From the NCBI GenBank assembly GCA_031315865.1, contig JALDRJ010000002.1, positions 1,772,001 to 1,836,000 of the forward strand: DNA of 64,000 bases, written 5' to 3'. Every line of letters starts with the position of its first letter. The stretch's first letter is position 1. Source of the DNA: Nitrospirales bacterium. GTDB taxonomy: Bacteria > Nitrospirota > Nitrospiria > Nitrospirales > UBA8639. The notes beneath the pieces are model-generated. The model was not told the DNA's origin. It did no database searches and saw only the letters and a list, made by a program, of their open reading frames with translations. Below are positions 8,630-24,931 of the stretch, piece after piece. The translations under genes and the position numbers were made by a program.

Positions 8630-9292
8630 TTATTCCCGAATGGCCTCCGTCCAAGCAATTTTCGGACTGACGTTGACCGACTTTGGCTTCGTGCACTTTT
8701 TCCCACGGTCGCCATAACTGATATTCGACGTTTTAATCGGACAGGTCCCAAAGGCTGTTCCGAACTCTACCACCCCGCTTACCACGGTGAGTGTCGACTG
8801 TCCGTTCTCATCGACAAGGAGGTCAAACTCTGTACCTTTGACCGCAGCCGTCGCGACGGGCGTTTCTATTTCCAAGGGTTTGGGCTCACCTTGTGTGTCA
8901 ACCCAGACTTCCCCATGCTTCAGGCGCAGGACCCGCGTAAATCCTTTGGATTTTTCCCATCGTGACAGAATCAAAAACTCGGTATTCTCATTGAGGGCCA
9001 CCTCGATCCCATTATCGAATTCAATTAATCCTTGGCTGGCGGACTCTGTTCGAATGACGTCGCCTTCAAAAAGCGGTAGCGCACCTTTTCCTTCCAAGCC
9101 CTCCTCGATTCCGTCACTTCGAATGATGGTAAAACCGCCAATCGCATTTTTTGCGATGCCGACTGATTCTGGAGAGGCCAGGGCTACTGGTCCCTGGTAC
9201 AAAACAGACAAGGTGATTATCGTGAGGCATAAGAGTTTGAGGGTATCGCTTGCCCTCCAACGCGTGCAGTGCTGATTATTGTTCGTTTTCAT
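8630..9292 (-). CDS. Exported FecR-domain protein
   Basis: A 220-residue exported protein. The start at 9292 follows GAGGAGCAC and opens a signal peptide with hydrophobic core LLCLTIITLSVLY and likely cleavage after ALA. The FecR domain covers about residues 55-175 (GDVIRTESASQGLIEFDNGI, then GEVWVD, then TPVATAAVKGTEFDLLVDEN). In classical FecR this domain receives a signal from a TonB receptor and controls a sigma factor, but here it is on the outer side with no cytoplasmic part and no sigma gene nearby. It is the last gene of a minus-strand run after the YVTN lipoprotein (46-base gap). Exported FecR proteins like this usually have unknown roles. Confidence 0.88.
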   Translation of the reverse strand: MKTNNNQHCTRWRASDTLKLLCLTIITLSVLYQGPVALASPESVGIAKNAIGGFTIIRSDGIEEGLEGKGALPLFEGDVIRTESASQGLIEFDNGIEVALNENTEFLILSRWEKSKGFTRVLRLKHGEVWVDTQGEPKPLEIETPVATAAVKGTEFDLLVDENGQSTLTVVSGVVEFGTAFGTCPIKTSNISYGDRGKKCTKPKSVNVSPKIAWTEAIRE

Positions 9293-9337
9293 GTGCTCCT
9301 CCTGTATCACGGTCATTTCATCAAGGTTCAAAGCTCG

Positions 9338-10333
9338 TTATCTGGACGCCACGACACGTATGGGTTTTTGGCCAACCGGGATGGTCGATAAGACTTTGTT
9401 GGTGCCAGTATCGATGATCTTCAGATCGTTGGATTTGGTATGCCCCACATAAAGCCGCGTTCCGACAGAATTTGCCCAGATACCGTTGGGACCTTGCCCG
9501 ACATCAATCTGTTCTTTGATTTGCGGTGTGGAGGTATTGGCGCTCAACACGACGACTTTATCGAGTCCGGCTACCGTGACGTAGGCATTTGGACCGGCCG
9601 TGCCTTTAAAGGCAAAGGCGATCTGTTGAGGGGCCGCGCCGACCTCGATCTCATTGGAGATTTCGTTCGTTTGTGGATCGATCGTGTAGATGGAATTGCT
9701 CCCGGTATTGGTTCCCCAGATCTGGCCATCTGGCCCAAGGACCAGAAAGTGGGGATTGGGCCCGACGGGAATACGTTTAATGATCTGATGCGCCATCGTG
9801 TCGATCACATTCACATGCTTGTCTTGTGTGCTGACATAGGCCAACTTGCCGTTACGGGAGAATGTGATACCCATGGGTCCCCCCGGAATCGGGATGGTGC
9901 CGAGGATGCGAAAAATTCCCGTATCGATGATGGAGATCGTGTTGTCGGCGATATTGGCGACCCAGGCCTGCTTGTTGTTATTTGTGAGGGTAACGACATG
10001 AGCGCGATCCCCCGTGAAAATGGACGCAATCGTCTCCATCTTCTCCGTGTCGATGACAGAGACGCGTCCTGAGGCCAAATTGGTCGCCCACAACTGCTTT
10101 CCGTCACGGGTCAGGGAGAGGTCATGCGTGGCATGGTTCAGAGTATCGATCTCGCCCAATGGCTTAAAGGTCGTGCCATCGACGACGCTGACGGAATTTG
10201 AACTTTCATTAGCCACATACACTTTCGTGTCAGGACCTTCCGGTTTAGTGGGAAGCTTGGCGATGCAGCCAGCGAGCAGGCTGGCCGCCAGCATACCTCC
10301 AAGGACTGAGAACAGCGTAGACGCCACCTTCAT
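9338..10333 (-). CDS. YVTN/YncE beta-propeller lipoprotein
   Basis: A 331-residue lipoprotein: SLLAGC places the lipidated Cys at residue 23. The mature part consists of about seven 40-residue YVTN repeats (KVYVANESSNSVSVVDG, QAWVANIADNTISIIDTG, LAYVSTQDKHVNVIDT and others), which fold into a beta-propeller. Such propellers are binding scaffolds; no catalytic residues are visible. It lies between the exported caspase gene (91-base gap) and the FecR gene (45-base gap), all in the same direction, so the three may work together outside the inner membrane. YncE-like proteins have been linked to DNA or metal binding, but nothing here decides that. Confidence 0.9.
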   Translation of the reverse strand: MKVASTLFSVLGGMLAASLLAGCIAKLPTKPEGPDTKVYVANESSNSVSVVDGTTFKPLGEIDTLNHATHDLSLTRDGKQLWATNLASGRVSVIDTEKMETIASIFTGDRAHVVTLTNNNKQAWVANIADNTISIIDTGIFRILGTIPIPGGPMGITFSRNGKLAYVSTQDKHVNVIDTMAHQIIKRIPVGPNPHFLVLGPDGQIWGTNTGSNSIYTIDPQTNEISNEIEVGAAPQQIAFAFKGTAGPNAYVTVAGLDKVVVLSANTSTPQIKEQIDVGQGPNGIWANSVGTRLYVGHTKSNDLKIIDTGTNKVLSTIPVGQKPIRVVASR

Positions 10334-10424: not shown

Positions 10425-13400
10425 TTATTGAACGCGCCCCATGATCAGTTGGCCTTCGACCTCTCCCTTCTTCACTGGGTGTTGATTCTGACCGGTCACG
10501 GAGGGCACTTGTGTGGAGACGTAGGAATAGGCCTCATCGACTGTGATGATGCCATCGGCGTCAAAGTCGGCTTTTCCTTTAAGTCCTTCCAACAGATAAT
10601 ACGTAAAAACGCCATGTCTCAAATCGTCCCGTTCTTCACTAACTTCACTGGCTCGACTGGCCGTCAAGACCACTCGTCCCTTGCCTTCGGCTAACCGAGA
10701 CAGGAAATTGTCCGAGACCACGGCTCGACGCGCTGCGGTGGAAAATGTCCGTCCCGCTGTGGCGCCACTATAGCAGGAATCTGTGATGAAAATGACCCGT
10801 TCTGCGGCAATACGGTCAAAAATGGTCTCGACCTCCCTCATCGGCAGGCCAGTGGTATAGAGGTCTTGCGGGTCAGCGTCATAGGGGATGAGGTATTTTT
10901 CAAGACCATCTCCGTCGGGACTTGCCGAGTCCGTTTCTGGGGCGCCATGCCCGGCGTAGTAAATGATGACGGTATCCTTGGGCCCGGCCTTGCGCTTCAG
11001 CTCGGTTCCCAAGGTTCTCTTAAGATTCACCAGCGTGGCCTGCTCGTTTATGAGCGACGTCAGGTGTTCTGCTGGAATGCCAACATCGTTCATGAGATAC
11101 TCATGAAAGGCTAAGGCATCGTTATCCGCGTACTTGAGGGGGCGGACCTTGTCGTACCTGGAAATTCCGATGACGACAGCCCAGATTTTGCCTTTATCCA
11201 GGATGCGGGTGACGTTGAGGGTTCGGGTAGCTGAGATTTGTTCACCATCAAACGCGGTGATGCTGATCGTATTGGTCCCCTCCCGCAACTGAACAGACTC
11301 CGAAAACTCGTAGGTGGTATTCGTCGCAGTCCGACCCGGCACGACGGCGATTCCACGGCCTTGACGCCTGGCTTGAAGTTCCTGGTTCACTCGTACTTCG
11401 ATGCGTGAAATGCCTTTTTCGCTGGCGGCAGCCCCGATTAATTGAATGCGATCAACTTTCACTTCTTGATTCTCGAATGGAGAAGCCAAGGCGATGGCTG
11501 GTGGCGTTTTGGGTGATGGGACCGTCGTGACTTGAGTCAATTGTTCTTTGAGCTCCTGTAATTCTGTTTGATACTGTCTGAGGGCTCTTTCTGCTTGTTC
11601 TCGCTGCGCATGTTCGGCGTGAAGCTTTTCCTCCATCGTGGAACGTTCATGGTTTTGCGAGGAGTGCAGAGATTCCAATTGAGCACGCAACTGCTTCATC
11701 TCATGTTCTCTGGCCTGTAACGTGGCGGTGGTCTGTTCACGCTCCGCGCGTTCCCGTTCGAGCTCTTCTTGTGTCGATGAGAGCTTTGCGTTCTCCGTGT
11801 TCGCAAGATGCTGGAGCTTTGCCTGCAAGTCGTGCATTTCTTGCTCGCGTCGTTGCAAAGCCTGCTCGATCTCCTCTCGTTGAATTTGCGCTTCTTGCAG
11901 TTGCTCATTCAACGTGATGAATTGAGCCGTTCGCGCGGCCTCTAAGCCTTGAATGATCGGAATCGGCATGCTGCCCTTGGCCATGGATACGGTGACCGAG
12001 GCTTGATTCTTGGAGATCCAGCCGGACTCCGCTTCGGAGAGTTGTACGCGATACCAGTCACCCAACTCTCCTGTTGCAGCCAGGGTTTGATCGTGTTGAA
12101 CTGCGGCGATGACGGAGGAGTCCGCTCCCGCGCCGCTCAGGATCGAAGCCTGTTTCGCAGTGACCGTGATGAGCTTGTTGGTCGCCACGATCTGAAGTGG
12201 CGGCTGTGTATCGACGGCCAGATTCAAGGTGTCGTTCAGGAAAACCTGTTCTGATTTTTCTTGAATGAAGAGCTTGAATTGGAGTTCTGCGCCCGAAAAA
12301 TCTGGCCACACGGTAAAGCTGACTCTGGCGCGTTTGGACGTTTCCCCTTCGAGAGCGCCAAACCGGATCACGCGAGGCCGAATTTTCAGGTGTTGATCAG
12401 CCCCATTATTGATTTCGACCCAGGTGTTCTTCGCGGGGACGGTGCTGACGTTTCGTAGGGTCAACAGAAGATCGACCGCTTCACCTTTTTGAATCCTCCC
12501 ATCTCCATTTCCCACAGACTGGCCACTGCCATCATCGAGAATTTGATAGTTATAGGCTAATCGCGGTTTGGTCGAACCCGTCAGATGAATCACTGCCTGC
12601 AGTGGTGGAGGGGTGAATCCGTTATATTCCTCGAACACAATCTGCATCGGCGCCGTGTCCTGGTCGTGATCTGCTGGAATTTGGACATGCACGACCTCGG
12701 ACTGCTGCTGTCCGGCTTCGATTTTTCCAAAATACAAGACTTGACCGTCGAATATTGGGTTTTCGCTCTGCGTGGTCCCCTTCATGCGATAGACTGGACC
12801 TTTTCCGGTATTCTTGATCGTCACCTGAAGTTCGACCGGATGCCCGGGCTGGGCTTCATGAGGGCGAATCACGAGTTCGGCTTGTGGGCGGGGAGGGGGA
12901 AATGGGGGAGGGCCCACTTCGTTGTCTTTCACCTCGATGGTGTTCTTGGCCTCTGGCGTTCCGCGTTGGACAATGCGCATTGAAGGATGAAATGGCTGAA
13001 GCTGGACGATGCGATCGCGGCCTCCGGAGGCAAGTGATTGACCGTCAGGAGAAAACGCTACTGCCCACACTGGTCCACGATGATTCGTGAATGATCGCAA
13101 TTCCTGACCATTCTTCCAATCCCATACACGGATGCTTCCGTCTTTTGCGGCGGATACGAGAGTAAGCCCATCTGGAGAAAAGGCGAGAGATTGCAGGGCG
13201 TCCGTATGTCCAGTCAAGATTCCTCGTTCGTGGCCAGTCGAGAGGTCCCACAGGCGGATGGTTTGATCGGCTCCCCCGCTGGCGAGAATTTGGCCATTGG
13301 GAGAAATGGAGACGGCTAGAACCGCTCCCCGGTGCCCGGAGAAGGTCTTTTGCTGGCGGCCGCTCGACGGATCCCACAGATGCACCATGGCATCGCTATT

Positions 13401-13955
13401 GCCAGTGGCCAGCAGGTGACCATCCGGGGAAAATGCCATGGAGAATATGATCCCAAACCCACTTTTCATGACTTTTTGCGGATTTTTTGTCTGCCAGTCC
13501 CAAAGATAAATATTTCCTCCATCTCCTCCTGTGGCGAGTGTTTTCCCATCGGGGGAAAACGTTAACGACCGAACACTCCCGAAGCGCGTGCTTATATTCA
13601 CCAGTTCTTTGCCCGTTCCGATCTCCCATAGTCGCCAGGTGCGGTCACGGGCACCGGAAGCTAGGAGCCGGCTATCAGGAGAAAAAGCCAACGCCCGAAC
13701 GGCACCGGTATGACCTTGTAAGATCTTACGTAGACGGCCCGTGCGGGGATCCCAGAGGCGAATCATTTCATCGCCGCTCCCAGAGGCGAGATAGTGTCCG
13801 TTTGAAGAAGTGGCTAATGAGAAAATTTCACCTTGATGGCCCATCAGCGACCGTGTTGGGGGATCGATTTCTGGAGAAGGGGATGCCTGAAGAGAGCACG
13901 GGTTGGCAAGAAGCCAAAGTACAAGACAGATAGTAAATCTTAAATAAAAATACAT
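10425..13955 (-). CDS. Exported WD40-coiled coil-caspase (peptidase C14) protein
   Basis: A 1176-residue multidomain protein with an N-terminal signal peptide (ICLVLWLLANPCSLQAS). In order: seven WD40 repeats (about residues 38-330, with motifs such as LASGSGDEMIRLWDPRTG); two CARDB-like beta domains (about 355-590); an SH3b-like unit (about 595-655, GDWYRVQLSEAESGWI); a long coiled coil (about 680-820); an Ig-like domain (about 830-920); and a C14 caspase domain (about 935-1170). The catalytic dyad is intact: His in IIYYAGHGAP near 998 and Cys in FITDSCYSGA near 1060. An EF-hand-like loop (DFDADGIITVDE) lies near 1133. Caspase-like enzymes cut after Arg/Lys or Asp; most bacterial ones with WD40 repeats lack signal peptides, so export is unusual. 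Confidence 0.92.
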   Translation of the reverse strand: MYFYLRFTICLVLWLLANPCSLQASPSPEIDPPTRSLMGHQGEIFSLATSSNGHYLASGSGDEMIRLWDPRTGRLRKILQGHTGAVRALAFSPDSRLLASGARDRTWRLWEIGTGKELVNISTRFGSVRSLTFSPDGKTLATGGDGGNIYLWDWQTKNPQKVMKSGFGIIFSMAFSPDGHLLATGNSDAMVHLWDPSSGRQQKTFSGHRGAVLAVSISPNGQILASGGADQTIRLWDLSTGHERGILTGHTDALQSLAFSPDGLTLVSAAKDGSIRVWDWKNGQELRSFTNHRGPVWAVAFSPDGQSLASGGRDRIVQLQPFHPSMRIVQRGTPEAKNTIEVKDNEVGPPPFPPPRPQAELVIRPHEAQPGHPVELQVTIKNTGKGPVYRMKGTTQSENPIFDGQVLYFGKIEAGQQQSEVVHVQIPADHDQDTAPMQIVFEEYNGFTPPPLQAVIHLTGSTKPRLAYNYQILDDGSGQSVGNGDGRIQKGEAVDLLLTLRNVSTVPAKNTWVEINNGADQHLKIRPRVIRFGALEGETSKRARVSFTVWPDFSGAELQFKLFIQEKSEQVFLNDTLNLAVDTQPPLQIVATNKLITVTAKQASILSGAGADSSVIAAVQHDQTLAATGELGDWYRVQLSEAESGWISKNQASVTVSMAKGSMPIPIIQGLEAARTAQFITLNEQLQEAQIQREEIEQALQRREQEMHDLQAKLQHLANTENAKLSSTQEELERERAEREQTTATLQAREHEMKQLRAQLESLHSSQNHERSTMEEKLHAEHAQREQAERALRQYQTELQELKEQLTQVTTVPSPKTPPAIALASPFENQEVKVDRIQLIGAAASEKGISRIEVRVNQELQARRQGRGIAVVPGRTATNTTYEFSESVQLREGTNTISITAFDGEQISATRTLNVTRILDKGKIWAVVIGISRYDKVRPLKYADNDALAFHEYLMNDVGIPAEHLTSLINEQATLVNLKRTLGTELKRKAGPKDTVIIYYAGHGAPETDSASPDGDGLEKYLIPYDADPQDLYTTGLPMREVETIFDRIAAERVIFITDSCYSGATAGRTFSTAARRAVVSDNFLSRLAEGKGRVVLTASRASEVSEERDDLRHGVFTYYLLEGLKGKADFDADGIITVDEAYSYVSTQVPSVTGQNQHPVKKGEVEGQLIMGRVQ

Positions 13956-14449: not shown

Positions 14450-15097
14450 ATGCCCCGTACCGCTCGAGCTTCCGTTGGAGGCATTTGTTACCACGTCTTG
14501 AACCGCGGCAACGCCCTGGCCGATGTGTTTCATGATGTGGAAGATTATCAGGCATTCCTCAAACTCTTACAGCGCAGCGTCGAAGAGCGTGGCATGCGGA
14601 TTGTGGCCTTCTGTCTGATGCCGAATCATTTTCATGCACTGGTCTGGCCCAGAGTAGACAGGGAGCTCAGTCAATGGATGCAATGGTTGCTGACGACTCA
14701 TGTCCGGCGCTATCACCGGATGTATCAGTCCAGTGGCCATGTATGGCAAGGGCGATTTAAGGCGTTTCCTGTCCAGCAGGATGAGCATGTTCTGATGGTG
14801 CGTCGGTATATCGAACAGAATCCCGTACGGTCTCGTCTCGTGACAAAGGCGGAAGAGTGGCGGTGGTCGAGTATTTCAGGGAGGGAACCCTGGCTCCATT
14901 CCGGTCCGGTCGAACGCTCTGCAGGGTGGAAAAAATTGGTCAATACGCCCCTCACGGGTGATGAAGTGGACACGATACGTCGAAGTGTTTACAGGGGAGC
15001 ACCGTATGGTCAGGAATCATGGGTTCGGCGGACCGTGAAACGTTTAGGATTAGAAGCGAGCGTGAACCCTCGTGGGCGGCCACGGAAGCTGTCATAA
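14450..15097 (+). CDS. REP-associated tyrosine transposase (RAYT)
   Basis: A 215-residue Y1-type transposase of the IS200/IS605-related RAYT group. The HUH metal site is in FCLMPNHFHALVW and the catalytic Tyr lies in the helix RRYIEQNPVR. Its opening RxxxxGGICYHVLNRGNA is also characteristic. It has a C-terminal extension (GLEASVNPRGRPRKLS). RAYTs nick single-stranded DNA at REP hairpins and are usually kept as single domesticated copies rather than as true insertion sequences. I see no clear terminal hairpin pair here, so mobility is doubtful. It ends 6 bases inside a convergent small gene. Confidence 0.92.
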   Translation: MPRTARASVGGICYHVLNRGNALADVFHDVEDYQAFLKLLQRSVEERGMRIVAFCLMPNHFHALVWPRVDRELSQWMQWLLTTHVRRYHRMYQSSGHVWQGRFKAFPVQQDEHVLMVRRYIEQNPVRSRLVTKAEEWRWSSISGREPWLHSGPVERSAGWKKLVNTPLTGDEVDTIRRSVYRGAPYGQESWVRRTVKRLGLEASVNPRGRPRKLS

Positions 15098-15747: not shown

Positions 15748-16527
15748 CTACCAGACGTTTCCCGCTCCAGGAGTATAGGACGAGGAGATAACGCTGTTCG
15801 TGACGACCGAGTCTGACTGCACGACTCCGGTAAATTTTGACATTCCTGAATTGACCTTCACCATCCCGCCCGAGACTTCCACCATGCTGGCATTGAGCGT
15901 GATTTTAGCCGAACTGTTGAGCGTAATACCGGTTTGGCCAACTTGCATGGCCGATTCAAGCTTTGAGAGGCGGCTTTGGAGCGCATGCGCAATCTTCTGG
16001 AGGTCTTGTACCTGTTTCTCTAACTGTTGGATGGTGTTTTCGGGTGAATGAGCCTGTGGGTTCTTCTTTGTTTGGCGACGCAACACCGTTTTGGGTTTTG
16101 TCGGAGGTGTGACCTGCTTCGCTTGTTTCACCGCTCGGGATCGAATTTCACTCGTGGAGCCTTCTGCTTCCAAGCCATGGCCATCAGGCAGCAGTACTTG
16201 AATGATGATGGCATGACCTTTCTCCGGGAGAAGATTGACGATCGGCCTACTCACGTGCTCGTCATGATGAGTCGGCGTAGCCTTTAGTAAGAAAGTCTGT
16301 TTGCGTTCACCGGGTATCAAGCGAAGCCAAGGATCCGCAGCTTCCACGTGATATGTTCCTGGTTTAATGACAATATCGCTACCATTCGCCAGAGTGAAAT
16401 GCGCGGGACTTTCAAGCGTGAGAAGGAGAGTCGAGGCGTTCATCTCACTTGCTTTGAGAGGATCAACGATAAGGAACAAGAGGAGGAGCGCCAGCGTTGT
16501 TGTAGAACGGTGTGGATCGATGAACAT
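15748..16527 (-). CDS. Paralog family protein A: shared domain plus spike-like tail
   Basis: A 259-residue exported protein; the start at 16527 has GGAG 5 bases upstream. After the signal peptide (TLALLLLFLIVDPLKA), residues 30-130 are the domain shared with four genes upstream: a hydrophobic strand pair, PGTYHVEAADPWLRLIP, and the closing signature LLPDGHGLEAEGSTSEIRSR. A basic linker and a coiled coil (IQQLEKQVQDLQKIAHALQS) follow. The C-terminal 60 residues (GITLNSSAKITLNASMVEVS, ending YTPGAGNVW) look like the beta-prism tail of VgrG/gp5-type spike proteins. It is the last gene of the run, 47 bases after protein B. No known function; the trimer-forming tail suggests an elongated extracytoplasmic assembly. 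Confidence 0.8.
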   Translation of the reverse strand: MFIDPHRSTTTLALLLLFLIVDPLKASEMNASTLLLTLESPAHFTLANGSDIVIKPGTYHVEAADPWLRLIPGERKQTFLLKATPTHHDEHVSRPIVNLLPEKGHAIIIQVLLPDGHGLEAEGSTSEIRSRAVKQAKQVTPPTKPKTVLRRQTKKNPQAHSPENTIQQLEKQVQDLQKIAHALQSRLSKLESAMQVGQTGITLNSSAKITLNASMVEVSGGMVKVNSGMSKFTGVVQSDSVVTNSVISSSYTPGAGNVW

Positions 16528-16574
16528 GTTTTCTCCTTTTGTGGCCCAAACGGTGCTGCGTTAACGGTATTGGA

Positions 16575-17561
16575 CTAACGGTTCCATTCGTCGCACACAA
16601 AGCTCACACTATCGATGTATGTTCCGTATTTCCCGCGCAACGCTTTTCCGACTTTATTGCCCGGGCAAAAAAAGTCATCGCTTCTCGTCCCCCCGAAAGG
16701 AGTCCCAGGCGCACCGGCGAACGCGCATTCTGTATTGCAACTCTTGACGTCTTTAGGAGATTTGAAATTTCTGGGTCGTTTCTTGGCGGCGTCCCATCTC
16801 GGACAGAACATGGTGATCCCATTCACAAACATTCCCGATCGTGCGTGAAACCCACCGACAACTCGACCGTCCCCACATCTATCGATGCGTCCCGTGCCGC
16901 CGGATCCTCCAACCGGTTTTCGTGTATAGTCTTCTCCCAGCGAACCATCGTGATTGACCTCTTGGCAAATGAGTCCAAGCGCGTCAATCCATGAGCCACT
17001 TTTCGTCGTGACTCCCACCATCACGCCATTCGGGCCACAATCAAGGTTGTACCTTTTCTTTCCGCCACCTCCCCCGAGCAGCGGCGTTTCGAACTCAGTA
17101 GAGCGGGTGCTTTGCCGGGAAGCCAGAAGAGCCTGCAATTGTTGACGGCTCAGTTTTGATCCGGCTCGTGATCGAATGCCGCTATAGGAGCCAGTCGCCT
17201 CAAAGCTTTTTCCGTCCGGTAGTAGCAGGACAAGATGGTGGGAGTCAGGCTCGATACCCGTAACCGACAACGCCAATGGAGTCTTTAATGACTCTTGATG
17301 TCTGCCCACATGGGCTTCAAGCAGGTACGCATCCATGGCTAGACCATGGCTGGGAATAATCCGGATCCAGTCTTGGGCAGGCTCCACGACATACTCTCCG
17401 GCACCGATCCTGAGATCGCTGCCGTCTGGCGTCAGGAAGTGAATCGGGACTTCAAGTTCGATCGTGTTGAGGGCGTTGGTCGACTCGGCGTGGGATTTTA
17501 GCGCGATTCCCAGGATGATCAACGATAAAACAATTCCGATAATCCATTTCAAATTTTTCAT
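16575..17561 (-). CDS. Paralog family protein B: shared domain plus triple Cys repeat
   Basis: A 328-residue exported protein. I use the start at 17561 (MKNLKWIIGIVLSLIILGIA), which opens directly into a signal peptide after GGGG; an ATG at 17591 adds ten polar residues. The shared domain (about residues 28-140) ends in LLLPDGKSFEATGSYSGIRS. The C-terminal half has three related units near residues 172, 225 and 298, each a Gly-rich strand with Cys then aromatic-Ile/Val-Asp or Asn (CGPNGVMVGVTTKSGSWIDA, RCGDGRVVGGFHARSG, FFCPGNKVGKALRGKYGTYI). The pattern recalls jacalin-like lectin strands, but the even Cys count suggests disulfides. Export and Gly-rich repeats point to ligand binding; the ligand is unknown. 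Confidence 0.78.
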   Translation of the reverse strand: MKNLKWIIGIVLSLIILGIALKSHAESTNALNTIELEVPIHFLTPDGSDLRIGAGEYVVEPAQDWIRIIPSHGLAMDAYLLEAHVGRHQESLKTPLALSVTGIEPDSHHLVLLLPDGKSFEATGSYSGIRSRAGSKLSRQQLQALLASRQSTRSTEFETPLLGGGGGKKRYNLDCGPNGVMVGVTTKSGSWIDALGLICQEVNHDGSLGEDYTRKPVGGSGGTGRIDRCGDGRVVGGFHARSGMFVNGITMFCPRWDAAKKRPRNFKSPKDVKSCNTECAFAGAPGTPFGGTRSDDFFCPGNKVGKALRGKYGTYIDSVSFVCDEWNR

Positions 17562-17598
17562 AGTATGTACCCCATCCGTTTTGTTGATCACGTATCAG

Positions 17599-19641
17599 TT
17601 ATCGGGCTGCGGCTTCGGCTAATAACAAGACACTCCGGTTATATCGTTCCAGGGCTTTCCTCGTGTCTTCTGTGTGCGTACTCGCGAGAATGATGATTTG
17701 CTGCTTCGATGGCAAGTATCGAAGGATCGCTGTCAATGGGCCGGCATGTTGTTGAATGGTTGCGTAGGGGCGTCCGCTTTTGAGCGCTTTTTTCCCTTCG
17801 TCGATGACCTTCCCATAGGCATACAGCAGTCCGCCCTTTACGCTGCCAACGATAATATTGTTGATCGTCAATTTCCAGATGACATCGGGAGTGACTTTGG
17901 CCACACCCGAGATGATGCCTCCCACCTCGGGGACGAGGCCGGCTGCACTTTGAACGACCGTGCCGACGGTCTGTTCGCCAAAGTCCAGAACCTCCACTGC
18001 GGATCGGATCAAAAAACTCCCACCACCCGGTAATTCACTGTTCAGATAGTTTTTTCCTACCACGCGTAGTATTTCCATCCCAATGTCGATGTACAGCGTT
18101 TCCGTCCATGGACTATTTGGGTCAAGAGCGGTTCTTACTCCACTCAAGGCTTGCGCTCGTTGTGCGGTATTGTCCAGCGATCTCGAGAGTCGTTCGACGT
18201 GAGAGGCTGCGGCGTGCAAGGTCTGTGGGTTCAAGAGCTGATCGGCCAGCACGGCATTTTTAATGTCGATGATATCTCCTAGTCCTGGAATGACTTCGCC
18301 AAGTAAGGCTTTAGCATCGTCACCGCCAAATCCTCGAGAGACAATCTGCCCTGGCGAATCAGGGCTATCGCTTGGTCCATATTCTTGAGCAATGCCTCGT
18401 GAGCGTACCGTTGTTTGGGCGATGTCACGGGGTGTCAGCGATGTCGCAGCCGACAAGATTTTGCCGATTTGCTTGCTGATGCCGCCATACAGGACAGGGG
18501 CCACTTGGTTGTCAAAGATTCGTTTGGCCTGTGTCTTGGCTGTCTGCTGTACCTGTCCGGACATCTTGTTCACTGTCTTGAGATGAGGGCTTGCAAACTG
18601 CATCAGACATCGTCCAGCTGGTCCCTTTTGCGCTAATTTTTCCAACGAGCGAAATGCCATGCTGACGACTTGCTCTCCTTGTGGTGCGGAACGGGAGGGA
18701 TTCTTGATGAACTGGAGTTGTTCGCCCATGATTTCACTAAAGTTCTGTTCCCATTGCTGCATGAGGTCTTGAAAAAGCTTGTTGGCAAATCCGGCAGGAT
18801 TGTTCACGAGCTGTTGAGCCATCTGCCCGACATTGCCGGTCGCTGACCCTGAGGCCTGCGCGAGGCATCCAAATAGCGGTTCGAGTTTTAACTGTCTGAC
18901 CGCTTGCAACGTTTGAATTTCACTCTGTAGCTTGGCGAGCATGGGGTTGTCTTGGAGTTGATTGACGCCGTCCTGCACTCCACTTCTGACCGCGCCAGCC
19001 ACCTGTCGACCGGCTTGCTCAACCTGCCGCTTGGCCTGCAGGGCGGCGTTCCTGGTGTTTTCTACACTTTTTTTCGCTTGGGACACAGCCTTCTGTGTTT
19101 GCTGCTTGATTTGTTTCGTCGTTTTTTGTGCGGTGCTCTTTCCCTTCGAGACCGCTGTTTCCGCCGTAGATCTGGCCTTTTGGTATGCGCGGTTCGCCTG
19201 TTTCTTGACATTGTTAACGGCATGATCAAACATGCCCCTCTGTCGAATGCCACTATAGGTTCCGGTGGCTTCCAGGCTCTTTCCATCAGGAAGCAGGAGG
19301 AGAATATGATGACGGTCGTGTTGTCCATCTTCGGTGTCGGGAACAGACAAAGCTAACGCCTCAGAAAGCTCGAGCTCATGGGTGCCTTTCTTCGCCTCGA
19401 TAAGGAGTGCATTCTGTGGCTCGTCCGGGATGAGTCGAATCCATTCTTGTGCCGCTTCGACGGAAAAGGTTGCAGAGTCCGTGACCAGCGGGCTTCCATC
19501 CGGCGCGATAAAGTACACGGGCTTGTCCAGCTCAATCGTGATTAGAGGATTCGAGAGAGTGGCATGGGCTTGGACGGTAGGTCCAAACCACACACACAAT
19601 GTAAGTGTGGCCACAATGGTTAGCCGGGAGAGTTTCATCAT
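17599..19641 (-). CDS. Paralog family protein C: shared domain plus long helical region
   Basis: A 680-residue exported protein starting after GGAGG at 19641 (MMKLSRLTIVATLTLCVWF). The shared domain covers about residues 28-145 and ends LLLPDGKSLEATGTYSGIRQ. Next comes a Lys/Ala/Gln-rich helical stretch (about 150-225, TAQKTTKQIKQQTQKAVSQA) like a coiled stalk, then a long helical body with glycine-rich hydrophobic segments (LLGEVIPGLGDIIDI, SAAGLVPEVGGIISGVAKV). Such segments occur in membrane-active proteins, but no toxin family is recognised. Only two Cys lie in the mature part. It begins a tight three-gene set, C-B-A, with gaps of 37 and 47 bases. Confidence 0.75.
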   Translation of the reverse strand: MMKLSRLTIVATLTLCVWFGPTVQAHATLSNPLITIELDKPVYFIAPDGSPLVTDSATFSVEAAQEWIRLIPDEPQNALLIEAKKGTHELELSEALALSVPDTEDGQHDRHHILLLLPDGKSLEATGTYSGIRQRGMFDHAVNNVKKQANRAYQKARSTAETAVSKGKSTAQKTTKQIKQQTQKAVSQAKKSVENTRNAALQAKRQVEQAGRQVAGAVRSGVQDGVNQLQDNPMLAKLQSEIQTLQAVRQLKLEPLFGCLAQASGSATGNVGQMAQQLVNNPAGFANKLFQDLMQQWEQNFSEIMGEQLQFIKNPSRSAPQGEQVVSMAFRSLEKLAQKGPAGRCLMQFASPHLKTVNKMSGQVQQTAKTQAKRIFDNQVAPVLYGGISKQIGKILSAATSLTPRDIAQTTVRSRGIAQEYGPSDSPDSPGQIVSRGFGGDDAKALLGEVIPGLGDIIDIKNAVLADQLLNPQTLHAAASHVERLSRSLDNTAQRAQALSGVRTALDPNSPWTETLYIDIGMEILRVVGKNYLNSELPGGGSFLIRSAVEVLDFGEQTVGTVVQSAAGLVPEVGGIISGVAKVTPDVIWKLTINNIIVGSVKGGLLYAYGKVIDEGKKALKSGRPYATIQQHAGPLTAILRYLPSKQQIIILASTHTEDTRKALERYNRSVLLLAEAAAR

Positions 19642-19806
19642 GAGGGTTCCTCCTTGCCGTGAACGTATTCGTGTCTATTGCTATCAGTCAGTCGAATGCC
19701 TGGTGAGAAAGGTTCACGTATACAGGTAAAGTGTCGGAAGAATCGACCGATTGGTGATGTCCTCACCTTTTAAACGGAGTCATACGTGGCAGGTGAGTCG
19801 CGATCG

Positions 19807-21264
19807 TCACGGGTAAAATTTTTTTCTGTCTGTTTCTTCGTTCTTGCGAAAAAAACGAGAGCTTTGCGGGCAAGGGGCATCGGCTTCGACCCAGGGGTCG
19901 ATTTTGCTGTACCACAGCAAAGGTTTGTTGGGAAATGGAACCGTCAACTTCTTCCCTGTAGGCGTGGTTCCGTCACTGACGGCCCAAAGTATTCTCGGAT
20001 CTTGATGAAAGTGATCGTATAACCGTTTTGGGTCAGGTGGGGTTTCAATTTCATTGTCTTTATTCGTAAAAGGGCCAGTGACTTTTTCACAGATGAGATG
20101 TGCGCTCCAGCCTTTCCAATTCAATCCTTGAGTGGCGAGTGGTGAAACCCACCGGTTTTTTATCTCCGGCGAATTATGACAATCCATGCAGAATGTGGGG
20201 TTCTGTGGTCTGGCTTCTTCTTCAAATTGGTACGGGAATTGTTCGACGCCCAGGCGGTATTGGTGCATTTCCACGATGGAATCGTGGTCGATGAGCGCGT
20301 GGCAAGTGGTGCAGCGATCATGAGAAAAAATGGGATACAGGACCGAATCGAAATAACTCATGGATCGGGCGTAAATTTTCGTATCCGAGGATTCCCACGA
20401 TTTGTTCCCTTTCGTGACCACCACTTTGACAGTTTTAGGCCAGGTTTGCGCACGCAGATCATTGAGCTCCACGCGTGTGAGGAGGGTTCCTCGTTTTCCG
20501 AATTTCAACCGGGAAATCGGTATCTTTTCCCCATTGAGCGTCAACGTGATGCAACATTGCTTTTTCTTGACGAGATTTTGAAAGTCTTCGTTGTGCCGGG
20601 GGATAAACGACGGATGTAGGGCACCCTTCTCCCAATATCCTCCCCAGGTCAATGTCAGGATTCCGGAGTTAAGTGTATCGCTCACTGGGAGTTGCCACGT
20701 GGTATGGTGCTTATCCCCCTGATAGGTTTTATGAGAATCGGGATATTCGAGGGAAATGCTCGACAAGGTTAGATGCGGAACGCTGGCTTGAGCTTTTTGC
20801 TTCTCGTCGATGTGAAAGAGCAGTCGTTCGTTCGGGAGAGGTGGATGATCAGCTGTTCGAGTATGAACGCCGGTCAGCCCTCCCCGTGCTTCCCAACGCC
20901 GACCATTCGGCAGGAGTAAGGTCAGGACAAATTCGTCTTTGCTCTCAGAAAATACCAGTGCGAGCGGCGTTTTCGTCAGACTATCCTGCTCAGTGATGTT
21001 CGCTTCTATCAGGATTGATTCGTCCCCCAATCCTTCTTGAGCGATTAACCGAAGGCCAAATTTTTCACCATTCAGTCCATAGGCCCCGGGCAAAACCGTG
21101 ACCTTTTCTCCAGCGGGCATGAAAAAGTGCAGCGTTTGATCGATTTCTACGGTGGCAGGCTTGTGGTCCGTCGATTCTGTTTTTGATGGAGTGGAGCATC
21201 CGGATATTATAAAAATTATGGTGAGTGAACCCATCAAGAATGCGAGCCACCGGAACGGAATCAT
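19807..21264 (-). CDS. Paralog family protein D: lipoprotein with two c-type heme motifs
   Basis: A 485-residue lipoprotein; GAGGAGGG precedes the ATG and IISGC gives lipidated Cys23. The shared domain (about residues 35-150) is the most diverged copy, but keeps LLLPNGRRWEARGGLTGVHT. The middle is beta-rich. Two CxxCH heme-attachment motifs follow: DRCTTCHALIDHD near residue 318 and FCMDCHNSPEIKNRW near 356, so the mature protein should carry two covalent hemes outside the inner membrane. Electron transfer or redox sensing is implied, with no catalytic family recognised. Gaps of about 160 bases on both sides mean it may have its own promoter. Confidence 0.82.
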   Translation of the reverse strand: MIPFRWLAFLMGSLTIIFIISGCSTPSKTESTDHKPATVEIDQTLHFFMPAGEKVTVLPGAYGLNGEKFGLRLIAQEGLGDESILIEANITEQDSLTKTPLALVFSESKDEFVLTLLLPNGRRWEARGGLTGVHTRTADHPPLPNERLLFHIDEKQKAQASVPHLTLSSISLEYPDSHKTYQGDKHHTTWQLPVSDTLNSGILTLTWGGYWEKGALHPSFIPRHNEDFQNLVKKKQCCITLTLNGEKIPISRLKFGKRGTLLTRVELNDLRAQTWPKTVKVVVTKGNKSWESSDTKIYARSMSYFDSVLYPIFSHDRCTTCHALIDHDSIVEMHQYRLGVEQFPYQFEEEARPQNPTFCMDCHNSPEIKNRWVSPLATQGLNWKGWSAHLICEKVTGPFTNKDNEIETPPDPKRLYDHFHQDPRILWAVSDGTTPTGKKLTVPFPNKPLLWYSKIDPWVEADAPCPQSSRFFRKNEETDRKKFYP

Positions 21265-21420
21265 GTAAGCCCTCCTCTGGCTTTTTGCCTAAATTACCCA
21301 AAATGGGTTCATCTGGAGCCTTTAGTGATCATAACTGAGAGAAACTCCTAGCGTAAAATATCATTCTTCGTCCTCATATGATGAAGAAGGCTAGATTGTC
21401 GAATGAGAGTGTGTAGGACG

Positions 21421-21591
21421 CTATTCTTGTCCGGTAAACATCATGGGTTGTGTCGTGACATCGACGGGAGGAAATCCCGGCCCGCCCGTAAACTGCATAG
21501 ACTGTGTCGTTTGATCAACCGATTGAAACGCCGCGGCTAGCCCCACACTTATCGCGAGCAGGAATAGAATCATTGGAAGACTTTTAATCAT
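21421..21591 (-). CDS. 56-residue secreted repeat peptide
   Basis: A small exported protein (MIKSLPMILFLLAISVGLAA) whose mature part is only about 33 residues. It holds two copies of one motif, VDQTTQSMQFTG and VDVTTQPMMFTG, separated by GPGFPP. Its ATG shares an A with the TGA of the gene upstream (TGATG), so translation is coupled to protein E. The ORF can be read from 21735, but that part lies inside protein E. No family is recognised. The doubled motif suggests a structural or binding peptide working with the neighbouring exported proteins. Confidence 0.65.
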   Translation of the reverse strand: MIKSLPMILFLLAISVGLAAAFQSVDQTTQSMQFTGGPGFPPVDVTTQPMMFTGQE

Positions 21592-22475
21592 CAGTTCACG
21601 CTCCCCTGTGCATGGATGCGAAATGGCGTTCCGTCGGCGGAGACCAGCCACGCTGGTTTTTGGTTCCCCAGCGGTGTGCCATGCTTTCCTGGCTGTCGGA
21701 ATCCGATCCCGGGTTTGTGCAGTAAAATACCGCAATAATATTGATCGGCATCCTCAGGCTCTTTGCCTTGACTCGCGTTAAACATGACGACGACGGTTCC
21801 TTGATATTGCCGATTGGCGATATTGGCGACCGATTCCCCTTCCCCAATTCTTCGGTCGTATTTTGTCGCATCGTTGCCACTATGCGTCCAACATTGCAGC
21901 TTCAATTTATCGATGTCTGGGTCCAAGTGACTGAGTTGTATGGGGACTCGCAGGGTAAAGTGGGCCTTGATGGTCACGCGCGCTCGGCTCGTTAAGCGTG
22001 CGCGGTCAAATTGTTGTTTGACCGTGGCGCGCGACGCTCCTGTTCGTTTCTTGGTCACGTGCGTGGCTCTTGATCGGATGCCGCTGTATGACCCTGTGGC
22101 TTCAAGGGCTTTGCCATCAGGGAGCAATAACATGAGCACGTGGAGATCGTCTTGTTCTGAGAATGAAAGAGGCGTCGGGACGGTGACCGTCTCTTCGTGA
22201 GTCGTGGGATGGGCTGTAATGATCAGCGGGTGATCCGTCGTCTCTCCCGTGAGTTGAAGGTACCCGTGCTCTGAACTCACTTCGTACGTACCCGGCGGGA
22301 CTGGTATGTCTTCACCCGTTTGACTCACGAAATAGGTTGTGCGATCCAAGGTGATTGCTGTCGGGAGTGGATTTGTTTCTTCGTTTAGAGAACGGGACGT
22401 GCAACTCGTTAAGATTCCTGTCCATCCAAGGATTCCGGCGAGTCCGAATGCAAGCATGGTATGAGATGTCGGCAT
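21591..22475 (-). CDS. Paralog family protein E: lipoprotein with shared domain
   Basis: A 294-residue lipoprotein (GILTSC, Cys25), with an AGGAG site upstream. The shared domain occupies about residues 37-140 and ends LLLPDGKALEATGSYSGIRS, the clearest form of the signature. A basic linker follows (KKRTGASRATVKQQFDRARL), then a beta-rich C-terminal domain (HFTLRVPIQLSHLDPDIDKL, VVVMFNASQG, DQYYCGILL) with two Cys that may pair. That last domain is not recognised. It starts 16 bases after the spike-like gene's stop, and its stop overlaps the start of the 56-residue peptide, so the three genes form one unit. Confidence 0.78.
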   Translation of the reverse strand: MPTSHTMLAFGLAGILGWTGILTSCTSRSLNEETNPLPTAITLDRTTYFVSQTGEDIPVPPGTYEVSSEHGYLQLTGETTDHPLIITAHPTTHEETVTVPTPLSFSEQDDLHVLMLLLPDGKALEATGSYSGIRSRATHVTKKRTGASRATVKQQFDRARLTSRARVTIKAHFTLRVPIQLSHLDPDIDKLKLQCWTHSGNDATKYDRRIGEGESVANIANRQYQGTVVVMFNASQGKEPEDADQYYCGILLHKPGIGFRQPGKHGTPLGNQKPAWLVSADGTPFRIHAQGSVN

Positions 22476-22491: not shown

Positions 22492-23106
22492 TCATTTCAC
22501 CCTGGGGACAGGGTTGTGTAAACGTGGCGATGTGTTCGTGACTTTGCTGCCTTTGATCATGACGTCGTTCGATCCTTTGATGTCGATGTTTTTTCCTGAA
22601 ATCGTGATGTCGCCATTCTTCTTCATGATGAACGAGGCTTTTCCGGTTTTGATGACGATTTCATCGCCGGCTGTCAGCAGAATTTTTTTGCCGGCAGAGA
22701 CAGTATGATTGAGCCCTGTGTTTTGAAGAGCATTTCCTTTGACTTGCTGAGAGGAGTTTTTCCCTACCGTCAAAGATTGCTCTCCGCCGATCGTGCGGTT
22801 TTGGTCCTGACCGACTGTCTCTGTTTGTGTCCGGCCGACTTGAGAGTGTCGATGGCCTCCGACTTGTACCCGCTCATCTGTTCCGATCGATTCCTGTTTC
22901 TGTTGTTGGACTGTCACGGTCAAGGCGCCTTTCGAAATCTTGAGCATGGATTGTAGCGCCGCGAGCTGTTGCTGCAGCATTCGCACCTGATCTTGGAGGG
23001 ATGAGAGTTGTTTCGTGGTATGCGGGTCTTCGGCTGTCACCGAGGCAGGGAATATGGATCCCCACATCAGGAAAAGGATTGCTATGGATATGGTGATTCG
23101 CGTCAT
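22492..23106 (-). CDS. Exported VgrG/gp5-like beta-helix protein
   Basis: A 204-residue protein with a Sec-type signal peptide (ISIAILFLMWGSIFPASVTA), a coiled coil (QLSSLQDQVRMLQQQLAALQ), then an octad repeat region (VGGHRHSQVGRTQTETVGQD, TIGGEQSLTVGKNSSQQVKG). It ends with strands typical of VgrG tails (ILLTAGDEIVIKTGKASFIM, GDITISGKNIDIKG). This matches the C-terminal triple-stranded beta-helix of T4 gp5 and VgrG, without the hub or lysozyme domains. Real VgrG proteins have no signal peptide, so this one probably trimerises outside the inner membrane. It heads the paralog locus. Confidence 0.82.
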   Translation of the reverse strand: MTRITISIAILFLMWGSIFPASVTAEDPHTTKQLSSLQDQVRMLQQQLAALQSMLKISKGALTVTVQQQKQESIGTDERVQVGGHRHSQVGRTQTETVGQDQNRTIGGEQSLTVGKNSSQQVKGNALQNTGLNHTVSAGKKILLTAGDEIVIKTGKASFIMKKNGDITISGKNIDIKGSNDVMIKGSKVTNTSPRLHNPVPRVK

Positions 23107-23383: not shown

Positions 23384-24931
23384 TTACGAGCGGGAGTCCG
23401 ACGAGGATGATTCCTCGAACCAATCGTCCTTGTGTCCGGTGGCGAACATCCATGTCAGAGCTAACGCGTATCGGGCAGCGCGCTCAAGAACAGCCGGTTG
23501 TATAGTGTCTCCTGTGTCCGAAGGCTGGTGAAAGTGTGCGTGTGTACCACTGCTCACGACTGTGACGGTTGGGACTCCGGCTTCGTAAAACGGGACGTGG
23601 TCTCCACCGGGAAAGTATCCATACAGCGAAACCCGTTCCGACAGGCCGGCTTGGTCTGCCGCTCGTGCCCCCATGGACTGGGGGATTCGCGTCAAGCCAA
23701 CGGTCAGTTTTCCATTTCCGGCGCCCACATGATCAATATTGATCATGGTAAAGATGTTGTGAAGCGGGTGTGTAGGATTCTGAACGTAGAGTTTCGATCC
23801 CAAGAGTCCTCGCTCTTCACCGTCGAACGCAGCAAATACGATCGTTCGTTTCAGGTCCGTTTTGTGTGCCTCCAAGAGACGCGCCAGTTCGAGTAAGAGC
23901 GCAGTACCTGAGGCATTGTCATCGGCTCCGGCAAACACCAGGCCTGCCTGTTTTCCGAAGTGATCCCTGTGAGCGCCGATCAGGATGATCTCTTTACGAA
24001 GAACAGGATCCTGTCCAGGGAGCGTCCCCAGGATATTGATCAACTTTCCTGAAGTCTTTTGGCTCTGCCATCGCCAATGCGCGACGATGCCCAGGTCTTG
24101 TACTGGGACAGGCTTGCCTTCATTCAATCGGGTCTGGATGTCGTTGAGAGAAAGTTCTTGCGAGGTAAATAAGGTGTCCCCCACGTTTCCGCTGATCCAG
24201 ATCCCAGGTAAGGGACGAGTATCAGGAGCGGCAGAATACATGGCAAGGGGAATGTTCGCCAGCCCGCGACGGGCTTCGTAGCGGTTCAACAACGGACCCG
24301 TCAGTGTAATAAATCCAGCAGCCCCGTGCTTTCTGGCCGTCTGTTCCTTTTCTTCATGCGTGACCCACCGTGAATAGCTTGTAGGTTTTCCGCGCAAGAA
24401 CAGCACGATGCGATTCCGGACATTCAGGCCCTGGTAGTCATTGATGCCGCGAGCTGGATCATCGATGCCGTACCCGACGAAGACGACAGGGGCCGTCACA
24501 TTCACGGATGGTGAATCAAGAACCGGTAAGAAGTCCGCTTTCAGTCTAAGGTTGACATCGTATGGCTGACGGCTCTGTCGGATCACCGTAAAGTTGGCCG
24601 TCACCTCGTCTGAAACAACCGTCGCAGAAAGGGGCCGCTGTTGAACCCAGGATCGTTCCATTCCTTCTTGAGCTTCTCCGGCTGGGAGTATTCCAAGATG
24701 CTCGAAACGCCGGATAACAAAATCGGCTGATTTCTGTCCGCCAACCGTTCCAGCCTGCCTTCCTTGGAAGTTTTCATGACTGAGTGTCTTGATGTCTTTT
24801 ACGATACGTTGAACATCGATGTCTTTGAGATGCTCAAACGACACGTCCGCGGCCTCAACATCACCAGATATGAAAGATATGAACCATGCCAGAACAAAGT
24901 TGAGAATGAACAAAGACCATCGCCGTCGCAT
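23384..24931 (-). CDS. Exported M28 family metallopeptidase
   Basis: A 515-residue zinc aminopeptidase-type protein with a signal peptide (LFILNFVLAWFISFISG, cleaved near VEAAD). A PA (protease-associated) insert lies in the middle (FVGYGIDDPARGINDYQGLN). The M28 catalytic part starts near residue 310 with the usual ligands: His in IGAHRDHFG, bridging Asp in AGADDNASGT, catalytic Glu in FDGEERGLLGS, Asp in INIDHVGAG and His in HAHFHQPSD. All expected residues are present, so it should remove N-terminal residues from peptides in the periplasm or outside. No strong ribosome binding site precedes the chosen ATG. It follows a 277-base gap after the paralog locus and is likely separate. Confidence 0.92.
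   Translation of the reverse strand: MRRRWSLFILNFVLAWFISFISGDVEAADVSFEHLKDIDVQRIVKDIKTLSHENFQGRQAGTVGGQKSADFVIRRFEHLGILPAGEAQEGMERSWVQQRPLSATVVSDEVTANFTVIRQSRQPYDVNLRLKADFLPVLDSPSVNVTAPVVFVGYGIDDPARGINDYQGLNVRNRIVLFLRGKPTSYSRWVTHEEKEQTARKHGAAGFITLTGPLLNRYEARRGLANIPLAMYSAAPDTRPLPGIWISGNVGDTLFTSQELSLNDIQTRLNEGKPVPVQDLGIVAHWRWQSQKTSGKLINILGTLPGQDPVLRKEIILIGAHRDHFGKQAGLVFAGADDNASGTALLLELARLLEAHKTDLKRTIVFAAFDGEERGLLGSKLYVQNPTHPLHNIFTMINIDHVGAGNGKLTVGLTRIPQSMGARAADQAGLSERVSLYGYFPGGDHVPFYEAGVPTVTVVSSGTHAHFHQPSDTGDTIQPAVLERAARYALALTWMFATGHKDDWFEESSSSDSRS

Follow-up and report, generated by a model that had tools for sequence, protein, structure and literature searches.

An exported domain with a near-invariant boundary arginine in Nitrospirales, possibly a pro-domain removed by an exported caspase-like protease

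We analysed a 64,000-nucleotide stretch of DNA from a Nitrospirales bacterium (assembly GCA_031315865.1, contig JALDRJ010000002.1, positions 1,772,001 to 1,836,000; called the window below, with coordinates given in its own numbering), in which five genes encode exported proteins with one domain in common and quite different rear parts. The domain forms a family that ends in a near-invariant arginine, after which conservation is lost, and it both co-occurs with and is linked to an exported protease of the caspase type. We propose, with somewhat less than even confidence, that it may be a removable pro-domain, that is, a holding or carrier domain cut off by an exported Arg-specific caspase. Three parts of this proposal are inferred: the cut at the Arg, the role of the caspase in it, and release as its purpose. 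That some protease or other cuts after the Arg is more probable than the full scheme. In the scheme, precursors would be exported by means of their signal peptides, some of them as lipoproteins; the beta-rich domain would fold and end in a tail [IV]-x-[SP]-R; the exported caspase-like protease (metacaspase type, C14) of the same island would cut after the Arg; and the cut would free the rear module, whether a lectin, a cytochrome, a spike, a helical body or another. A wider proposal, possible and yet well short of probable, is that Nitrospirales may have a dedicated extracytoplasmic maturation system, in which exported metacaspases are matched by their own substrate-side recognition domain, and any module, be it a lectin, a cytochrome, a spike or a collagen, could be stored as a precursor and freed by one cut after Arg.

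The five genes all lie on the minus strand, and all five proteins start with a hydrophobic export signal. In the first (15748..16527) the domain occupies 16120-16452, with the codon of the boundary Arg at 16135-16137, and is followed by a coiled coil and a spike-like tail. The second (16575..17591; domain 17154-17492, Arg codon 17166-17168) continues with a linker and a jacalin-like beta-prism module, and the third (17599..19641; domain 19225-19566, Arg codon 19237-19239) with a helical body in which there are two further Arg motifs, VRSRG and IVSRG. The fourth (19807..21264; domain 20839-21171, Arg codon 20857-20859) has a lipobox and a rear part with two CxxCH, and the fifth (21591..22475; domain 22056-22379, Arg codon 22068-22070) also has a lipobox, with a rear module that gave no Pfam match. 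The Arg codons of all five genes were checked.

A BLAST search with the protein at 15748 found the other four genes and seven more stretches of the chromosome (E 3e-15 to 1e-5), and a profile made from the five domains found six genes outside its training set on the same chromosome (i-Evalues 8e-35 to 5e-18). These six are located 77-111 kb along the chromosome, and three of them carry a tandem pair of copies. When a profile of 14 copies was run against the whole genome, exactly those 14 copies, in 11 genes, were found and nothing further. Because the BLAST and profile searches recover 14 copies, the family is far beyond chance and bigger than the five paralogs described in an earlier note on this DNA. 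Otherwise that description held: the open reading frames (ORFs), BLAST and the profile confirmed five minus-strand genes sharing an exported domain of about 110 residues, a simple pattern detects a lipobox in 19807 and 21591, in keeping with the two lipoproteins mentioned there, and the end motif LLPDGKxxEATGxYSGIRSR, or a close form, is real, its final Arg being the most telling residue. The notion of a single leader domain with many exchangeable rear modules is also supported. The modules had been fairly described, with two CxxCH in 19807 and with the 'triple Cys repeat' of 16575 being the beta-prism fold, except that the spike likeness of the 15748 tail was seen by eye only and no spike family in Pfam or PHROGs matched it.

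The earlier note had recognised no named family for the domain, and no significant shared match to Pfam or NCBIfam was found here. When the 56 copies from 11 genomes that made up our domain alignment were scanned singly, only scattered weak matches appeared, the best at E 0.0034 in Pfam (three of the 56 members) and E 0.0023 in NCBIfam (one member), and a profile search for solved relatives gave a best E of 0.087. AlphaFold2, run on the alignment, predicted an all-beta fold of ten short strands (predicted local distance difference test score, pLDDT, 87.5; predicted template-modelling score, pTM, 0.77). Foldseek found no counterpart of this model in the PDB at E<=0.001, and the best VIA-align result, WDR91 with Z 4.7, is at a level that is uninformative by the tool's own note. 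The fold prediction is confident, and the domain may still have a known common fold. Lipocalin, PH-domain and WD40-blade identities were dropped, the structural matches being too weak.

Of the 235 genomes from the window's order, 38 contained the domain (24 of the 153 good ones), with up to 16 copies and a patchy occurrence within genera. A sample of 395 genomes of the phylum contained 19 positive ones, every one in this order, and a contig scan, limited in reach by the use of one short pattern, gave 13 loci, all titled Nitrospirota, Nitrospirae, Nitrospirales or Nitrospira; the domain was found outside the order neither among the 395 genomes nor in the 13 loci. An origin from a mobile element was also rejected, as a plasmid and phage search with one domain sequence gave no match and a pattern scan of viral contigs none that was confirmed.

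The end of the domain follows the motif [IV]-x-[SP]-R/[GA], where the slash marks the boundary. Among 114 unique copies (113 scorable at the boundary residue), this residue was Arg in 110 of 113 and was as constant as the core residues Tyr (112/114) and Gly (110/114). The residue after it was Gly, Ala, Ser or Asp in 103 of the 113, and the columns past that residue showed no conservation among the unique copies. In the model of the mature 16575 protein, the last strand ends at residue 102, the Arg is residue 109, seven residues on, and the linker (residues 111-140) has pLDDT 57-74.

A second motif appears where the domain does not stand first. In 10 of the 104 unique domain proteins in the loci that were read, over 120 residues separate the domain from the start of the ORF; two of these are, by eye, mis-started ORFs with the signal peptide just before the domain, and the remaining eight are true mid-chain cases, so the domain is not strictly N-terminal. 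In each of the eight, a single Phi-x-[SAP]-R-[GA] motif stands in the 80 residues that precede the domain, and their other 2,257 upstream residues contain none; since these proteins look like about two protein families, the independent events are fewer than eight. Domain clusters occur in two families of genomes, and in the first family further strict motifs were found inside rear parts, 9 in 10,574 residues with orthologs counted apart, as compared with 19 in 114,424 residues of background (P 3e-4).

These motifs speak against the explanation that nothing is cut and that the Arg merely caps the structure of an ordinary extracellular beta domain spread by gene fusion. So do two fusions of the domain with DUF928 (L010:15484-16620 and L044:3100-4263) in which the Arg is lost and the domain kept, together with three copies with a like tail. 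DUF928 is known to occur beside CHAT proteases in cyanobacteria. The cap is favoured by models in which the tail is partly ordered: the Arg stretch has pLDDT 79 and 87 in two of them, which counts against cutting in that the Arg could cap the fold, and, because the 101-110 block of the 16575 model has pLDDT 87, the tail may pack on the domain. On balance, we consider a mere cap very unlikely.

The rear modules were examined by scanning 51 of 55 flanking pieces with Pfam (45 behind the domain and six before it; four short ones were left out). PAN was found in six pieces, DUF928, FG-GAP, CARDB, beta-helix and Tcp10_C in two each, and S74 chaperone, collagen, TSP3, TIG, DUF11 and others once. In single scans, S74, PAN_4, FG-GAP, CARDB, TIG, TSP3, beta-helix, DUF928 and collagen were above their own cut-offs, crystallin and CXXCH matches were below theirs, and four of eight pieces had no match at all. 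The only toxin-named match in the 51 pieces, several of whose modules are unnamed, was Tox-PAAR-like, which fell short of its cut-off and came from a piece ahead of the domain. To judge from these matches, the named rear parts appear mostly adhesive, matrix or redox. The rear module of 16575 was modelled as a beta-prism, matched by Foldseek to banana lectin (E 8e-7, template-modelling score, TM, 0.73 by target) and aligning with ZG16 proteins at TM 0.80-0.83; as modelled, it is a jacalin-like lectin fold. We also noticed that the two Arg motifs in the helical body of 17599-19641 are 21 residues apart and that a similar protein of L130 has also kept two, at a spacing of 22 residues.

An ORF of genome G306 (L124:10825-11508) aligns to residues 179-299 of 16575 (40% over 135 residues, with a diverging end) and contains no domain copy. 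Because it has much of the module and an apparent plain signal peptide at its start without the domain, it suggests that the domain is dispensable for export. This ORF also bears on the proposal of the earlier note, in which the domain was an uncleaved anchor or docking module fixing or assembling varied rear parts on one extracytoplasmic structure. A common leader with swapped modules would fit such a role, a lipobox is present in 19 of the 104 unique proteins by the simple pattern, and a spike-like gene adjoins the array. However, much of one module exists in G306 without the domain, the domain also occurs mid-chain, and conservation stops sharply past the Arg; the Pfam, NCBIfam and Foldseek results contained no known fold or family hinting at anchoring, which weakly points the same way. 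Anchoring on one structure was thus left unsupported, and we regard it as distinctly unlikely, whereas the boundary Arg motif, the second motif before mid-chain copies and the caspase linkage favour a pro-domain. Anchoring prior to cleavage may nevertheless occur, above all in the lipoproteins.

The candidate processing protease is encoded at 10425..13955 on the minus strand, 1.8 kb from the five-gene array. It is an exported WD40-caspase with HG and DSC motifs, its Peptidase_C14 match scores 65.2 bits against a cut-off of 21.4, and the solved proteins closest to it in sequence are metacaspases. It aligns with yeast metacaspase-1 over HG, DSC and NDA; the His-Cys dyad is present, and the acidic positions in NDA and DSC, which presumably serve cleavage after Arg or Lys, are aligned as well. 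A close ortholog, defined by E<1e-150, a cut chosen after the list was seen, was found in 25 of the 235 genomes of the order. The domain was present in 24 of these 25 and in 14 of the 210 others (Fisher 6e-22); with the 1e-40 cut of the search itself, the count was 24 of 27. Counted by genus, nine had both, one the caspase only, one the domain only and 26 neither (P 8e-7). In nine hand-picked domain-bearing genomes, 23 of 60 C14 genes were located within 20 kb of a domain gene, where 1.3 were expected, with at least two per genome. A C14 gene was present in all 22 tested domain-bearing genomes (of 38) and in 8 of 14 domain-free genomes taken from a listing, from which G308, picked for its caspase, was left out.

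Several observations, here and in the motif counts below, weigh against the pro-domain scheme. The genomes are related, hence not independent. A close WD40-caspase ortholog was lacking in 14 of the 38 domain-bearing genomes (some incomplete), and their pooled site is nearly as well kept: the tail consensus was found in 35/42 copies as compared with 76/81 (P 0.105), and the Arg in 38/42 as compared with 77/81 (P 0.44). Genome G308 has the caspase ortholog and island, no domain was found in it, and the exported proteins of its caspase island contain no strict motif in 6,331 residues (exported background, 2 in 10,290). These genomes would suit an explanation in which the Arg site is cut by a different exported protease (trypsin-like, another C14 enzyme or one from outside the island) and the WD40-caspase is a co-inherited neighbour, as would the other C14 genes found near domain genes in G085 and G388. 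The strong co-occurrence and linkage of caspase and domain argue against it, as does the weak site consensus, a post hoc observation, in single-copy genomes without the ortholog, and we find it rather unlikely.

In eight such genomes with a single domain gene, the tail consensus was kept in 3/8 and the Arg in 6/8, whereas elsewhere the consensus was found in 108/115 (P 2e-4); the group was chosen post hoc, three of the eight are one genus, and G420, the ninth genome with a single copy, was not counted, as the contig ends within its domain copy. Of the seven exceptions found in other genomes than these eight, five have a common Pro-rich tail type, with a DUF928 module in two (G000 and G204), the other three being assigned by tail likeness. 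Without these five DUF928-type tails the pooled contrast became 76/77 versus 35/41 in genomes lacking the ortholog (P 0.007, post hoc). A decay of the site in the absence of the caspase ortholog is suggestive, no more.

We also looked for the Arg motif in neighbouring proteins without the domain, using a regular expression picked by eye and an export call by a simple hydrophobicity rule that misses some exported proteins. A looser motif was enriched in the domain-free neighbours of the second family only. In G153, which was part of the first look, the strict motif occurred 13 times in 12,323 exported cluster residues and once in 8,356 residues of exported background. The held-out clusters of the second family had 12 in 22,683 exported residues, as compared with 18 in 106,015 of all background (P 0.003) and 1 in 13,133 of exported background (P 0.02), a background that includes the G153 part already seen; held-out clusters of the first family had 1 in 5,444 residues. 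Proteins of the same second-family clusters that were not called exported were equally dense in the motif (11 in 20,933), the window's own cluster had none in 9,131 residues, and a position-specific scoring matrix made from the domain tails showed no clear enrichment in neighbours without the domain. Because of the own-cluster, G308, matrix and non-exported results, a general neighbour motif is not claimed, and the G308, matrix, neighbour-motif and pooled-site results are also why our confidence in the full scheme stays below even. As a side observation, second-family exported proteins (L047:2892, L048:3, L051:2653, L059:2, L061:8584, L061:9627 and others) have [IV]-x-[ST]-R-G a short way after the signal peptide, often with acidic residues ahead of it.

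We know of hardly any natural substrates of bacterial metacaspases. Sequence alone here names candidate substrates, namely the 104 unique domain proteins, along with a testable bond and a nearby protease, and the domain can serve as a tag by which surface and matrix proteins exported by these relatives of nitrite-oxidising bacteria can be found. Among the systems that resemble the scheme are the gingipains, which are paired with type IX secretion. Gingipain propeptides share with it Arg-specific proteases and propeptide removal (PMC3677877, in excerpt). According to the excerpts of PMC12445089 and PMC3501461, metacaspases cleave after Arg or Lys. The island proteases are like prokaryotic metacaspases (orthocaspases, C14B) in their C14 domain and catalytic motifs; the excerpted text of PMC3501461 already reports that fusions with WD40 occur, that metacaspases are dense in Nitrospirae and that 57% of the Nitrospirae members have an intact C-H dyad, as the window protein does; an exported substrate family with a common pro-domain is not described in that text. 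Polymorphic toxin systems also combine one leader with many C-terminal modules and caspase-like release, but their payloads are toxins and their processing peptidase is usually a domain of the toxin chain itself (PMC3482391, excerpt), whereas here the candidate protease is separate and exported, and the payloads that could be named look structural or adhesive. YabG, a spore-former enzyme of proposed clan CD, is likewise a His-Cys protease with Arg at P1 and several structural precursors; it works on spore proteins, and the excerpt of PMC12445089 names no common substrate domain. Among the papers listed in a literature search, none described the domain or a Nitrospira caspase substrate in its title or abstract start. 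Caspase-like release, WD40 metacaspases and Arg-specific precursor processing were thus already known, and what is new is a domain on the substrate side that is paired with exported caspases which are proteins of their own.

Some other genes around the array are worth describing. Directly upstream of it, an exported protein without a domain copy (22492..23106, minus strand) contains a Gp5_trimer_C spike repeat (42.2 bits, cut-off 30.9), which is unusual in a stand-alone secreted protein; as to a spike of a type VI or contractile-injection system, this repeat was all that was found, in a protein whose start looks exported. An M28 peptidase gene (23384..24931, minus) adjoins the array, an association only; its product could trim new N-termini. 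In G204 and G240, too, domain genes have M28-like genes, recognised by N-terminal sequence, in their vicinity. An IS200-like Y1 transposase-type gene (14450-15097) lies between the caspase gene and the array. On the other side of the caspase, a YNCE-like beta-propeller lipoprotein (9338..10333, minus) and a FecR-domain protein (8630..9331, minus) have homologs in the domain clusters of 10 and 9 genomes, respectively, in both families. Genes common to the clusters of both families are the caspase, the YNCE-type propeller lipoprotein, the FecR protein, an extracytoplasmic function (ECF) sigma factor with its anti-sigma factor, and DUF4384 lipoproteins; apart from the caspase and propeller genes, all of these were seen in just two genomes of the first family. 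In L012:7-3984, the ECF sigma factor, a zf-HC2 anti-sigma factor and two DUF4384 lipoproteins form a block, homologs of which stand beside domain genes in both families.

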